Shown: positions 13,185 to 19,662 of the stretch, piece after piece | Layout: each line of letters begins with the position of its first letter | Position numbering within the stretch: the stretch's first letter is position 1 | Virus record (IMG/VR): IMGVR_UViG_3300024518_003106 | Coordinates: 1-22,585 of that record | Source: a virus | Strand: one strand, 5' to 3' | Length of the DNA: 22,585 nucleotides | Translations under genes and position numbers: made by a program | The notes under the pieces: model-generated | What the model saw: the letters and a program-made list of their open reading frames with translations, nothing else | Database searches by the model: none | Told to the model about the DNA's origin: nothing

Positions 13185-13576
13185 TATACAATTTCCTCAA
13201 ATGCAGGTTTTGCACCTTGTTTAATCATGGCGCGATAAAGTCCATAAGGAGTAAGACAGAAGCCATGAAAACCAATTACATCCTTTAGCATTGATACGCA
13301 GGTTCTAATTGCATAGCCATGTGTGACATTATGTTTTTCTGTCCATTGTAGAGCTTTACCTTGTTTTCTACAAAATACAATAAATTTATCGACATCATAG
13401 GGCTCTGCGGCACGAACTATACATTGTCCGGGCTGTGGCTCTACAAAAAGCCACTTTTCTAATTCAGGGTCTTTGGCAACAGCCATGACATGCCGAAAGC
13501 CTTTTTTTGTCCAAATACGCGCCCAGGCACTCTGTTGTAGATGGCCATAATCCATAAACAGCACATACCAAATCAA
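13184..13576 (-). CDS. Phage protein of unknown function with conserved-looking Cys and TPYGLYR motif, 130 residues
   Basis: The longest frame begins with a TTG at 13576 that overlaps the terminase stop (TTGA). An ATG at 13555 would remove seven residues that read like a first beta-strand (WYVLF), so the TTG start is kept with caution. No good ribosome site is seen for either. The middle has G-F-R-H-V-x-A-V (about 26-33) and E-K-W-L-F-V-E-P. The C-terminal part has C-V-S-M-L-K-D-V-I-G (about 93-102) followed by T-P-Y-G-L-Y-R (about 109-115). This Cys helix plus T-P-x-x-L-Y-R pattern is one I associate with small papain/transglutaminase-like phage proteins near terminases. Enzyme activity is speculation. 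Confidence 0.68.
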   Translation of the reverse strand: MIWYVLFMDYGHLQQSAWARIWTKKGFRHVMAVAKDPELEKWLFVEPQPGQCIVRAAEPYDVDKFIVFCRKQGKALQWTEKHNVTHGYAIRTCVSMLKDVIGFHGFCLTPYGLYRAMIKQGAKPAFEEIV

Positions 13577-15108
13577 CGGTGTGCAAAGCGTTGATTCTGA
13601 GATCGCCTTATCCTTCCGCCGTTTCTACGATCAAAAATATTCTTTTTTTCGTGAAGAACAATAGGCTCTGCTGGTTTTGGGCCTCGAACAAGGGTTTTGC
13701 CTTCACCAGCACCAAGCATCATATACTGAAGCGCATCATGAATATGAGAAGATTTATTTTTGGCAGGCCGCTCCTGATATTGATCCATTGTTCCGGCAAA
13801 CAGCGCATAGTGATATCCGCTACTGAATCCCTGTATTAACACTTTGCAACTAGGATCGATCAACATTCCAGGCTGGCCGTCAATCATACGATTGAGAACA
13901 TCCTCTACAGCTTCGATTCTCAAATCCGGATTATTAGAATGTGCAGGTCTGGCCAAAACACCTTCTGCCTTCAAAATGCGGAAAGGTGTGTTTTCATCAG
14001 TTTGAGCGCGATGATCTCCGGCAGGATCACCGTAAATTAAAAATTTCACATGCTCGTGCAGTGAAAACTCTCCCATCGCCTGTTTTAATTCTCCGGCAAA
14101 CCTTTTTGCCCCCATGTTGGTTCTGACAACCTCTTTGAGTATTCTCCACCGTCCGTGAATGCGTTGTGCAAAGGTCGCGGCGGGTGTCAGGCCAAAATCT
14201 ATACCTATCCAGATATCTGTGTCGGCACTTGCAGTCAGGGGTTCAGCAGCCACGTGAACTTCGCGTCTGAAGCTCGAATAAACAGGCTTGCCGGTAGAAT
14301 GGTCGCCTAATTCATTTCTAACGTAGACATCTATCCAATCTTTGTCTTTTCCCTGAATAAGACCCGGATAATAGGCGGTATCGAGATTTTTTAAGTTCTC
14401 GGCACGGTCATTGATTGCATATGCGATCACTTCGCCTTGTGCATCCCGCTCCTCGACCATTGCGGCAGGCTGTCTGAAAAATTCCCAGTCGGGGGGAGTA
14501 ACAAGCGTGAGTTTATCGGTTTCAGACAACCAATCGGGTATCGGAGCCTCACCAGCCATGATCGGCCACCAATGTTCCTCACTTGGCGCGTTGGTGTCCA
14601 TTATAAGCCCGGAGAAGGTGGCACCGCCGTCCTTTATGGCAGGGAAGCGCCGCAATCTCGATGTTGCTGCATCGATGATGGCTTTGGGGACTTCTCTGGC
14701 TTCATTAATCCAGGCCATCGTTAGCTCGAGGGACAAAAGTTTTTTGATATCCTCCTGCTTATCAAGGGCAAGAAAAATGACCTCCATTTCGATATCGTTT
14801 ACCTTGACCATATGAATGAAGGGTGGCGACCACGAAAAATGGCCAAAATCAGACTCGGGAAACCATTCAAGCCATGTTTTTGCCGTTGTGAGCTTCAATT
14901 CGGGGAAAGTGTTGCGAATAATGGCGTGTCTGGTGCGTCTAATGCCATTCTCGTCGGGCTGTTGCGCACAAGCGCGCCGAAATAGCTCAATACAGGAGGC
15001 TGTTGAGGTGCCGGAACCAATAGGACCGCGTATGCCACGGACGAATTTATCCGACTTCATGTATGCCTTCAGGACTTCTCCATCAGGCTTATAATTAATA
15101 GCTACCAT
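13573..15108 (-). CDS. terL: Terminase large subunit (packaging ATPase and nuclease), 511 residues
   Basis: The packaging motor subunit translocates DNA through the portal and cuts it. ATPase: the P-loop position is G-P-I-G-S-G-T-S (residues 28-35), where Thr34 replaces the usual Lys. Walker B-like L-T-M-A-W-I-N-E (129-136) ends in Glu136, and M-D-T-N-A-P (170-175) fits the coupling motif. Nuclease: I-G-I-D-F-G (301-306, Asp304), Y-G-D-P-A-G-D (359-365) and H-I-H-D-A-L-Q-Y (455-462, Asp458) give the expected acidic residues. The start overlaps the preceding 69-codon gene by one base (TAATG) within the 14-base palindrome 15103-15116. Identity is secure; the P-loop change is the oddity. Confidence 0.95.
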   Translation of the reverse strand: MVAINYKPDGEVLKAYMKSDKFVRGIRGPIGSGTSTASCIELFRRACAQQPDENGIRRTRHAIIRNTFPELKLTTAKTWLEWFPESDFGHFSWSPPFIHMVKVNDIEMEVIFLALDKQEDIKKLLSLELTMAWINEAREVPKAIIDAATSRLRRFPAIKDGGATFSGLIMDTNAPSEEHWWPIMAGEAPIPDWLSETDKLTLVTPPDWEFFRQPAAMVEERDAQGEVIAYAINDRAENLKNLDTAYYPGLIQGKDKDWIDVYVRNELGDHSTGKPVYSSFRREVHVAAEPLTASADTDIWIGIDFGLTPAATFAQRIHGRWRILKEVVRTNMGAKRFAGELKQAMGEFSLHEHVKFLIYGDPAGDHRAQTDENTPFRILKAEGVLARPAHSNNPDLRIEAVEDVLNRMIDGQPGMLIDPSCKVLIQGFSSGYHYALFAGTMDQYQERPAKNKSSHIHDALQYMMLGAGEGKTLVRGPKPAEPIVLHEKKNIFDRRNGGRIRRSQNQRFAHR

Positions 15109-16306: not shown

Positions 16307-16747
16307 CTATCCAAGATCGATGGTGATTGCTACAGCGTGCTGGTGCGAAACCTTCTCCGGTGCTTTAAAGCCCGACCGATCAAGAATGTCCTTGCTTGCC
16401 TCGAGCCTGACATACTCTGACTTGCCTGATCTACTGAGTTCAGCGACTGCGTGAGCAGCGTCAATGGCGCTTGTACCAACGAGTTCAGCTACCTTCTGGA
16501 AGATGTAGGCTTGAACGTGAGGTAATCGCAACGTCCTGCTTGCTGCACTTCTACCACTTTCTCCCTTGGCATATCCTGCTATTTCCGATGCTTTTGTCAC
16601 GGTCACACGTTTCATCACGCCGTCGTCATCGGGAACGCCATTTACATACGTATCCGCCAGTATTTGTTGCCTTCTTGTAAGGCTGATGTCGGGCAAGCCC
16701 GGAACAGGGTGTTTGATCGAGCTTTTAGAGCGTCTCTGCTTTGCCAC
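16307..16747 (-). CDS. terS: Terminase small subunit, 146 residues
   Basis: The start is GTG at 16747, with AGGA five bases upstream. The N-terminal part has L-T-R-R-Q-Q-I-L-A-D-T-Y-V (about residues 23-35), then V-T-K-A-S-E-I-A-G-Y (about 50-59) and S-R-T-L-R-L-P-H-V-Q-A-Y-I (about 70-82). This is the HTH arrangement of phage small terminases (DNA recognition), followed by a helical oligomerisation region and a short beta C-terminus. TerS binds the packaging site and regulates TerL. It lies at the head of the late operon, but terL is about 1.2 kb downstream, separated by five tiny genes. Confidence 0.85.
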   Translation of the reverse strand: MAKQRRSKSSIKHPVPGLPDISLTRRQQILADTYVNGVPDDDGVMKRVTVTKASEIAGYAKGESGRSAASRTLRLPHVQAYIFQKVAELVGTSAIDAAHAVAELSRSGKSEYVRLEASKDILDRSGFKAPEKVSHQHAVAITIDLG

Positions 16748-16783: not shown

Positions 16784-16813
16784 ATTAGAGCCGTGTAGCG
16801 GGAACGATGTCAA
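16784..16813 (-). promoter_or_regulatory. Sigma70-type promoter for the leftward packaging/virion operon
   Basis: On the minus strand a perfect -35 TTGACA (16813-16808) is followed after 18 bases by TCTAAT (16789-16784), one mismatch from TATAAT. Transcription would begin near 16777, giving a leader of about 30 bases before the GTG of terS. A host-RNA-polymerase promoter is therefore likely. Confidence 0.65.
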
Positions 16814-17142
16814 CCCCCCACACTTATCGTTTTAATATCAATGTCATGCCATTCCACACCGTGGAGCGTGGGAATACTCATTTACACAAATAACGTAAAT
16901 TGGACACTTTTCAACGTCGAGTCGCTTACGCGTTTGTCATGGGTTTCACCCCTGACTACCCCACAATGAGCATCCGCTCCTTGACCTGGAGAACCGTTGC
17001 GTCGGTTCATCTCGCTAGAGTATCGAACGCTGTTCGATGTCGCTATGCGCTCCCATCGCTAAAGCGATTGCAACAAGGGCAACCTTAGAAGCGTTTCGCA
17101 AGAGCGAAACCCACTTCTTAGTTTTGCCGGGAGGAATGTTGC

Positions 17143-17271
17143 ATGCTCGAGGCCGTTACGACGACTGAGCTCCGTATCGAACCTGTATCGCGTTACTCGC
17201 GTCGACACGAATCAAATGTTTCGTGTCTTTGGCTCGGACTCACGCTCAACAGAACCGAACTCCGCTTCTAG
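17143..17271 (+). CDS. Possible 42-residue peptide in the intergenic region
   Basis: ATG at 17143 to TAG at 17269-17271. A near-perfect ribosome site GGGAGG ends eight bases before the ATG. The peptide starts MLEAVTTTELRIEPVSRYSR, is polar and basic and has no recognised domain. It lies inside the hairpin-rich region, and its codons include the arms of the 17204-17227 repeat, so the frame may be accidental. The ribosome site is the only positive support. Confidence 0.35.
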   Translation: MLEAVTTTELRIEPVSRYSRRHESNVSCLWLGLTLNRTELRF

Positions 17272-17486
17272 TCGCTTCACTACCTTGGGAGTGTAGGTGT
17301 GTGTGTGGAACTTGGCCTGGGCCAACCCTCCGTCGCTCCGTTGTCGCTCCTCCGGGGGGAACCCCTCACGACTGTAAGGAAGAACCCGTTATTTAAATGG
17401 GTTGCAAGCAACGCTTTTTAGTAGGGTTTCTCTTTCAAATTCAGTCTTATGCAAATTCAAGGGGTCGGCGCGCTTCACTCACCAAT

Positions 17487-17565
17487 CGATCCTAATCATC
17501 CCCTGCGCTTCTTTTTGTCCTGCTTGAATCATTCAAAATGTTCAAGATGCGCAGAGGAAGGATCG
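17487..17565 (+). ncRNA. Nested stem-loop structure, candidate regulatory RNA leader
   Basis: Three nested pairings are visible: 17487-17493 with 17559-17565 (CGATCCT/AGGATCG, seven pairs), 17503-17508 with 17549-17554 (CTGCGC/GCGCAG) and 17523-17528 with 17541-17546 (CTTGAA/TTCAAG). Two alternatives compete: TTGAA (17524-17528) can instead pair with TTCAA (17532-17536), and TCGCT (17563-17567) with AGCGA (17579-17583), which would break the outer stem. It lies about 110 bases before the first rightward gene. Function is unknown. Confidence 0.45.
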
Positions 17566-17677
17566 CTAGGCTCCTTGCAGCGACCTAAACGTAGTTTACC
17601 CCTTGAGTTCGCGTGAGGCGAACCCTGATTGCCCCCTACCAAGTACCACTCACCCACTTCATTGGAGGACTTTGAGA

Positions 17678-17818
17678 ATGGATAAAGTTTGTGCGATGTG
17701 CGGCGACATCAGAAATGCCGCTGATACCGAAGCAAGTGAGCATCACCAACTGTGCAATCCTTGCTTGATTGACATCGAGGAAACAATTGACCCAAACGCA
17801 TATGCTTGTTTCTCATGA
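17678..17818 (+). CDS. Zinc-ribbon microprotein, 46 residues
   Basis: The start at 17678 is chosen because GGAGG lies nine bases upstream; an in-frame extension to 17603 lacks such a site. The protein has two CxxC knuckles, C5-A-M-C8 and C26-N-P-C29, spaced 17 residues apart, with His22-His23 between them. That is a typical small zinc ribbon. The rest is acidic. It is the first gene of the rightward cluster, and its TGA overlaps the next start (ATGA). Early-gene zinc microproteins often bind host proteins or nucleic acid, but no family is assigned. Confidence 0.72.
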   Translation: MDKVCAMCGDIRNAADTEASEHHQLCNPCLIDIEETIDPNAYACFS

Positions 17819-18546: not shown

Positions 18547-19356
18547 ATGCCTAAAGCTAATCAAGCGACGACCCTGAAAACCTCGACGGTCATCAAGCCT
18601 GATGGAACGAAGATCGATGCTCCGGCGAAGACGATTCCATATACCATAGGACCAGATATTGAAAAAGGCCTGGAGGCTCGGGGAATCAAGCCATTGGCAG
18701 AAACGGACGAGCAAAAGATGAACCGGCTCGTAAACGAGCGGGTTGCCATCGAGATGGCTGCTCAAGCGCAGGATGCTGCAACAGACAGCATGCCTGCTCA
18801 CGAAGAAACCAAGCGCGAAGAATTTACAGCACAATTACTGGCAGCGATTAAAACGCTGGCTGAGCTTTTCGATATAGACATCGAGCAAGTTCATCCAGAT
18901 CAACCGCCAGTGCAATATGCGCAAGGAACGCTTCTTCGCGATCTCTGCTATATGATGAACCGCAACATTGAATATAATAAAAGAATGCTGCAACAAAGAT
19001 CAGAATCGATCAACAAAATGTGCAATCAGCACAGGGGAGATGAGCAATCTGACACCAGCATTCAGAATATGACCATATTCATGCGCGGACTTGAAGATCA
19101 ACTTGAGCTTTGGACATGCGCTGATGATGCGGCGAAAGAAGCTCATTCCTTCTATACCGGAAATGAATACGGCGTGAATAAACGCGCCGCAATCGATCAA
19201 GCGGGAGCTACTGCCGCAGTCTCTGAGGCAAGAAAGATAGCCTCCAGACACCTTGCGGCTAACCCAAAAGCTGAAGCGAATCGCGCTGATAACGAAAAAA
19301 AGGCGCTTCTGGCAGAAAATGAACTGCTTCGCAAAGCAGTCTCAGACACCCGCTAG
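18547..19356 (+). CDS. Unknown soluble protein, 269 residues
   Basis: ATG at 18547 with GAAGGA eight bases upstream. I do not recognise a family. The protein is hydrophilic, Ala/Glu/Asp-rich and largely helical. Its N-terminal 45 residues are Thr/Lys/Pro-rich. A helix follows around E-E-F-T-A-Q-L-L-A-A-I-K-T-L-A-E-L-F (about 91-108). Then come a Met/Asn-rich middle and a coiled-coil-like C-terminus with E-K-K-A-L-L-A-E-N-E-L-L-R-K (about 250-263). There is no membrane segment or zinc motif. It is the last gene before a strong terminator, so it closes the first rightward transcription unit. A small hairpin (19325-19330/19335-19340) lies in its last codons. Confidence 0.75.
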   Translation: MPKANQATTLKTSTVIKPDGTKIDAPAKTIPYTIGPDIEKGLEARGIKPLAETDEQKMNRLVNERVAIEMAAQAQDAATDSMPAHEETKREEFTAQLLAAIKTLAELFDIDIEQVHPDQPPVQYAQGTLLRDLCYMMNRNIEYNKRMLQQRSESINKMCNQHRGDEQSDTSIQNMTIFMRGLEDQLELWTCADDAAKEAHSFYTGNEYGVNKRAAIDQAGATAAVSEARKIASRHLAANPKAEANRADNEKKALLAENELLRKAVSDTR

Positions 19357-19370
19357 ACTAAGCTGAACTA

Positions 19371-19415
19371 CCCGCTGCCGTTCCTTCCCCAAAGGGAGCG
19401 GTAGCGGGGCTTTTT
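19371..19415 (+). terminator. Strong intrinsic terminator
   Basis: CCCGCTGCCG (19371-19380) pairs with CGGTAGCGGG (19399-19408), ten pairs with one G-T, with further pairing possible inside the loop. It is followed by GC and five T (19411-19415). Placed 15 bases after the stop of the 269-codon gene, it ends the first rightward unit. Confidence 0.88.
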
Positions 19416-19662
19416 CATGTGCTGCGCGTAGTCGATGTACGCTGCTTCGCAGCTAACATCGATCTCGTTTCACTCGCAAAGAAATGAATTGCTGCGCAAT
19501 ACATAAAATGGCGATCAATAGAAGATCGCTACCGGCTGAGTACTCATCCCTGAACAGGATGAGTACCAAGACCGGGAAACCCCGACCCAGTTCGCCCTCA
19601 TACGCCTCAAAGGAAAAAGGACGTAACAAAATTTTTTTATGAAATTACAGGGAAATGGGAAA
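19416..19662 (+). other. Second hairpin cluster between two rightward units
   Basis: No gene is seen here. After the terminator come five more dyads in tandem: TCGATGT (19432-19438) with ACATCGA (19456-19462) enclosing GCTGC/GCAGC (19441-19445/19449-19453); ATTGC/GCAAT (19488-19492/19496-19500); GCGATC/GATCGC (19511-19516/19524-19529); GTACTCATCC/GGATGAGTAC (19540-19549/19557-19566, ten perfect pairs); and CGGG/CCCG (19573-19576/19581-19584). The final part is A-rich with seven T at 19632-19638. A promoter for the next unit should be here, but no clear -35/-10 pair is visible. Confidence 0.7.

Follow-up and report, generated by a model that had tools for sequence, protein, structure and literature searches.

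A candidate two-domain structured noncoding RNA beside terS in a pelagiphage-like virus

Between the divergent packaging and early units of the virus analysed here lies a noncoding region, and it raises the question of whether this region serves as DNA, as RNA or as neither. A preliminary description had presented positions 16880-17623 as an array of a dozen short hairpins, many with the same TCGC/GCGA/CGAA core, that might be a packaging site, an origin, a set of operators or a structured RNA. We call the whole stretch of DNA that was analysed, a virus record 22,585 bases long, the window. Its minus strand carries the head and packaging genes: terL (13573-15108), terS (16307-16747), a head-tail adaptor and the major head protein. 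The plus strand carries small early genes, a RusA resolvase and an exonuclease. Among named cultured phages, Pelagibacter phage EXVC031P Hodr is the closest (terL 53.5%, capsid 46%), and the capsid matches HTVC010P-type pelagiphages at ~32%. ARAGORN found no tRNA genes in the window.

We compared the hairpins of 16880-17623 with those in 500 dinucleotide shuffles of the same sequence, counting perfect, non-overlapping hairpins with loops of 3-11 bases. With arms of 5 bp or longer, 12 hairpins were counted, 2.5 times the shuffle expectation (4.8 +/- 2.0), and none of the 500 shuffles reached this number. Six hairpins had arms of at least 6 bp (1.3 in shuffles; 1/500), and 4-bp arms were in weak excess (20 vs 15.2; 28/500). 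The hairpins are thus denser than in shuffled controls. TCGC was enriched in the region (12 vs 5.2 expected, 0/500 shuffles). Since GCGA and CGAA were not over-represented relative to shuffles, the claim of a common core is restricted to TCGC. The stems differ from one another, and the direct repeats in the region are short and occur in two copies only.

Folding of single sequences gave a similar picture. The 761 nt of 16880-17640 beat 20 of 20 shuffles on both strands (z -4.2 and -4.0), and z scores across four lineages, on both strands, ranged from -4.6 to -9.2. A coarse fold scan in 200-nt steps did not single out 16880-17623 (best z -2.0), because a large share of its bases pair over long distances.

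We then compared the region with related sequences. Viral contigs were searched by terL and terS, which yielded 160 loci. One contig (L002/L082) is 99.75% identical to the window over 1,200 nt, and three further lineages, L003, L083 (with L004) and L085 (with L006), are 66-74% identical to it over large parts of the region. L163, L164 and L165 came from a search with a 24-base core motif, and L168 from one with a second motif. The L163-type lineage is distant from the window (terS 32%, capsid 28% identical) and keeps both core motifs at a spacing of 173 bases, compared with 128 in the window. A scan of genome collections added L178 (JABIQT010000044.1), of the L163 type, in a MAG titled Candidatus Latescibacterota SI072_bin148. 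L178 shares 96% identity with L163 over 1.4 kb and is therefore probably a phage contig despite this binning. The element is carried by several distinct phages, all of them known solely from environmental sequence.

Other candidates were set aside. The two remaining genome-collection matches were due to chance, and L167 has a single motif that lies inside an apparent gene. When viral contigs were scanned with relaxed 14-base motifs, the matches listed included no further member; model R1, a covariance model described below, was applied to L200-L299 (best E 0.97, L236), and the others were judged by motif pairing only. No nucleotide relative of the whole region or of the joined core motifs was found in the phage database. 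During these scans CTAAACGTAGTTTCCCC was seen to recur in L202, L246, L276, L304, L257, L287 and L288, where it is repeated, probably within coding sequence, and has no relation to the RNA.

The window, L003, L083 and L085 were aligned over the full length as a small set of four divergent lineages. Their consensus structure has 150 pairs, with 93.4% of cells paired. Both sides had changed in 41 of the 150 pairs, compared with 16 in shuffles (0/500 reach 41) and at most 11 when partners were slid. Consensus folding was 13-17 sd below column-shuffled alignments (z -13.4 on the plus strand, -17.5 on the minus strand). The consensus was derived from the same alignment on which pairs were counted, and the L163 lineage provides an independent test. 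R1, built from the four window-type sequences without L163, matched L178, L163 and L165 at E values of 4e-10 to 1e-8, and these matches include compensated pairs in the outer stem. R1 found no further match among the terS/terL relatives. These data indicate that pairing is conserved along the entire element in four lineages, through nested and long-range covarying helices, and over the core in a fifth; of the readings first proposed, they back a structured RNA.

The alignment with L003, L083 and L085, the consensus pairs and the column shuffles place the whole structured noncoding element, ~730 nt long, at 16935-17660. A first hairpin at 16941-16954 (16941-16944/16951-16954) marks the edge of the conserved unit, with 81% of cells paired and no double change. 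In the consensus fold a 5' domain (16955-17294) follows, closed by helix 16955-16962/17287-17294. It contains hairpins at 16964-16983, 16991-17008, 17022-17038, 17055-17068 and 17205-17226, together with helix 17162-17170/17264-17274. Most helices of this domain show double changes; the closing helix shows none.

The 3' domain (17297-17657) is closed by the long-range helix 17297-17321/17633-17657, which covaries over a gap of ~310 nt, with four of its pairs changed on both sides. When its strands were taken in isolation, 4 of 500 shuffles matched the covariation score. The helix is 85% paired, compared with at most 45% in slid versions. Within this domain lies a conserved 3' core (17442-17621), in which 97.9% of cells are paired. 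Both sides had changed in 12 of its 47 pairs (3.9 in shuffles), and slid structures were less than 50% paired. The core consists of a stem formed by TTCAAGGGG (17456-17464) and CCCCTTGAG (17599-17607), an inner arm (17487-17565) and the hairpin TAAACGTAGTTTA (17586-17598). It is common to all five lineages; the 5' part could be aligned only poorly in L085 and was not recognised by blastn in L163.

Comparison of the lineages thus indicates that 16935-17660 is one noncoding two-domain element rather than separate hairpins. The hairpins of the preliminary description are real and in excess, and they belong to a single element in which several supported helices span 50-360 nt. Both conditions named beforehand as refuting that description, a hairpin density no higher than in shuffles and a lack of conserved pairing, were examined, and the results went against each of them. 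The limits given there were nearly right, with the conserved unit running from ~16935 to ~17660 and a separate palindrome at 16851-16875.

This imperfect palindrome, of the type ATTTCACACC-n-GGTGTGAAT, is kept in four relatives in the alignment upstream of terS (L003, L083, L085 and L084) and lies ~40-50 bp upstream of the terS -35. It is probably a regulatory site separate from the RNA, and possibly an operator or activator site. A conserved TTGACA on the minus strand at 16799-16813 is, by alignment and position, the probable -35 of the terS promoter; it was absent from the output of a consensus promoter scan at default stringency. A second noncoding stretch of the window, at 19357-19640 on the plus strand, is also very strongly structured (z -8.2, 0/200 shuffles). 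It has a strong terminator-like hairpin at 19371-19408, after the gene at 18547-19356, followed by several long hairpins, and L083 has only ~50 bp of it in common.

The element does not appear to be coding, nor does it match a known family. Three ORFs of 55-62 aa lie within the region, and a protein-coding reading was rejected since these ORFs are interrupted by stops or frameshifts in relatives. When all 4227 Rfam families were searched, nothing in the window reached the gathering threshold. At a relaxed threshold the region, L163 and L085 gave no GOLLD or ROOL match. The best sub-threshold match was to Clostridiales-2 in L085, outside the core, and at 23.1 bits against a cut-off of 58.6 we regard it as chance. 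The RNA family appears to be undescribed, as judged from Rfam and some full-text searches, short of a complete literature survey.

Which strand would be transcribed? The indicators for the element (wobble pairs, consensus energy, single-sequence z scores and model transfer) are contradictory. Consensus energy favoured the minus strand by 24.9 kcal/mol, compared with 6.8 +/- 6.5 in shuffles. Wobble-pair tallies were mixed, with neither strand clearly favoured, and single-sequence z scores were similar on both. Strand-specific models scored L163 equally (48.5 and 47.3 bits), and substitutions between L163 and L178, placed on single-sequence folds, were uninformative. Comparative folding leans to the minus strand, and the context in L163, with its small plus-strand genes and their ribosome-binding sites, favours the plus strand. 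No promoter for the element was recognisable on either strand.

The neighbouring genes were also compared. In the window lineage the element adjoins terS and sits between the divergent units. An ATG with a ribosome-binding site starts a gene at 17679, ~20 nt past the end of the element, and no terminator-like site was found between the two. This downstream gene encodes a Cys-rich small protein in the window, L003 and L083 (less clearly in L085) and is unrelated in L163, a comparison that covers few lineages. In the L163 lineage three small plus-strand genes precede the core, which lies ~0.9 kb from terS, and the gene that follows it is unrelated.

We consider it very likely that the element functions as RNA in some way, and we favour, with moderate confidence, an independent large noncoding RNA, ~730 nt long and structured as two domains. 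The closure of both domains, a 3' core that stays constant while its arm and its 5' partner change, and the turnover of neighbouring genes together suggest an RNA that works as a folded object. The RNA of 16935-17660 would fold into its two domains and act as such an object, alone or with protein, in the way presumed for the phage RNAs GOLLD and ROOL. We infer its transcription, its independent action as opposed to that of a cis-only leader, and any role in the cell. A view of the region as chance hairpins in ordinary intergenic sequence, or as a set of small unannotated genes, is extremely improbable. It could appeal to the short ORFs and to the coarse fold scan that passed over the region, but compensatory changes and shuffle tests speak against chance, and the stops and frameshifts in relatives speak against genes. 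As far as sequence comparison allows, this reading is refuted.

Two functional alternatives were weighed against an independent RNA. The element may be a long cis-acting 5' leader that works by antitermination, attenuation or sensing, for the early genes if it is read from the plus strand or for terS and the late genes if it is read from the minus strand. We think this unlikely but regard it as a serious rival, because nothing resembling a terminator lies between the element and the gene at 17679, whose ribosome-binding site and ATG follow within ~20 nt. The lean of the comparative energies to the minus strand, which is the terS strand, would also suit it. However, the neighbours change, with the L163 type following three small plus-strand genes and preceding an unrelated one, and two closed domains in more than 700 nt would make a large leader. 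Less likely still is a site that acts as DNA, whether a packaging site, a replication origin or an operator array, with hairpins forming in single-stranded or supercoiled DNA. In the window lineage the element adjoins terS and stands between divergent units, which counts in favour of such a site, and the strands fold about equally well with no clear preference in wobble pairs. Against it, covariation extends to nested helices whose sides lie up to 360 nt apart, which is not expected of such sites. The L163-lineage core keeps no constant position beside terS, which weakens the packaging-site reading, and the operator reading finds no repeated binding unit, just short direct repeats in two copies.

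In more distant relatives, the junction between terS and the first divergent gene is also strongly structured and noncoding, at 400-800 nt, with unrelated sequence. The junctions of L108 (805 nt, z -6.1/-9.1), L189 (734 nt, z -6.8/-12.1) and L160 (397 nt, z -8.9/-7.6) are examples, and those of L094, L118 and L119 are strongly structured as well. When three sister clusters were aligned, pairs changed on both sides were found in number only in the L108 group (14/67 and 18/75 on the two strands). None of the sister junctions reached threshold against Rfam. L108 and L101 have long-range complementary segments AGATAAACG... / ...CGTTTATCT, ~250-330 nt apart. In L089, L094, L101, L108 and L112 a long conserved hairpin around TTCCTTTT ... 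AAATGGGTTC lies directly before the ribosome-binding site of the first plus-strand gene, and it looks like a structured leader. We treat unrelated structured RNAs at the sister junctions as a lead, not a result. If sister lineages do carry their own unrelated RNAs there, the locus itself becomes a worthwhile question.

Large structured RNAs have been described in other phages. GOLLD is phage-encoded, often >800 nt long, with an elaborate covarying structure that is conserved at the 3' end and less so at the 5' end, and its function is unknown (PMC12286853). ROOL is phage-encoded, ~660 nt long and complex in fold, also with unknown function (PMC12286853). Both build homo-oligomeric RNA cages and often lie near tRNA genes, a frequent and not strictly defining feature (PMC12286853). 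The present element shares with GOLLD its size class (~600-900 nt), extensive covarying structure and a conserved 3' part with a variable 5' part. It shares with ROOL a phage origin, a similar size and a complex fold. In contrast to GOLLD, it has no sequence or covariance-model match and no tRNA genes in its window; it differs from ROOL in lacking a model match, in its motifs and in not being near tRNA genes.

Phage ICP1 produces an abundant noncoding transcript of ~800 nt that is not near tRNA genes (PMC7567579). The present element is likewise a noncoding phage region of similar length away from tRNA genes, but transcription has been demonstrated for ICP1. The cabRNA of staphylococcal phages is a structured RNA transcribed from within terminase genes and sensed by host CBASS (PMC10686824). 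The likeness lies in a structured phage RNA connected with terminase genes; cabRNA lies within them, whereas the present element is intergenic.

As judged from these comparisons, the element best fits a new large phage noncoding RNA family, like GOLLD and ROOL in kind and unrelated to them in sequence. More tentatively, and with some doubt, it may represent a new giant-RNA family of podophages related to pelagiphages, one of several sequence-unrelated large RNAs at the terS/early junction, and perhaps assembling into RNA particles like those of GOLLD and ROOL. The covarying two-domain model offers a ready basis for probing, cryo-EM and gene-removal designs. Only a handful of large, ornate RNA classes have been described from bacteria and the viruses that infect them. 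One more family in pelagiphage-like phages, unrelated to the others, would suggest that such RNAs have arisen repeatedly, giving a new system to compare with GOLLD and ROOL.
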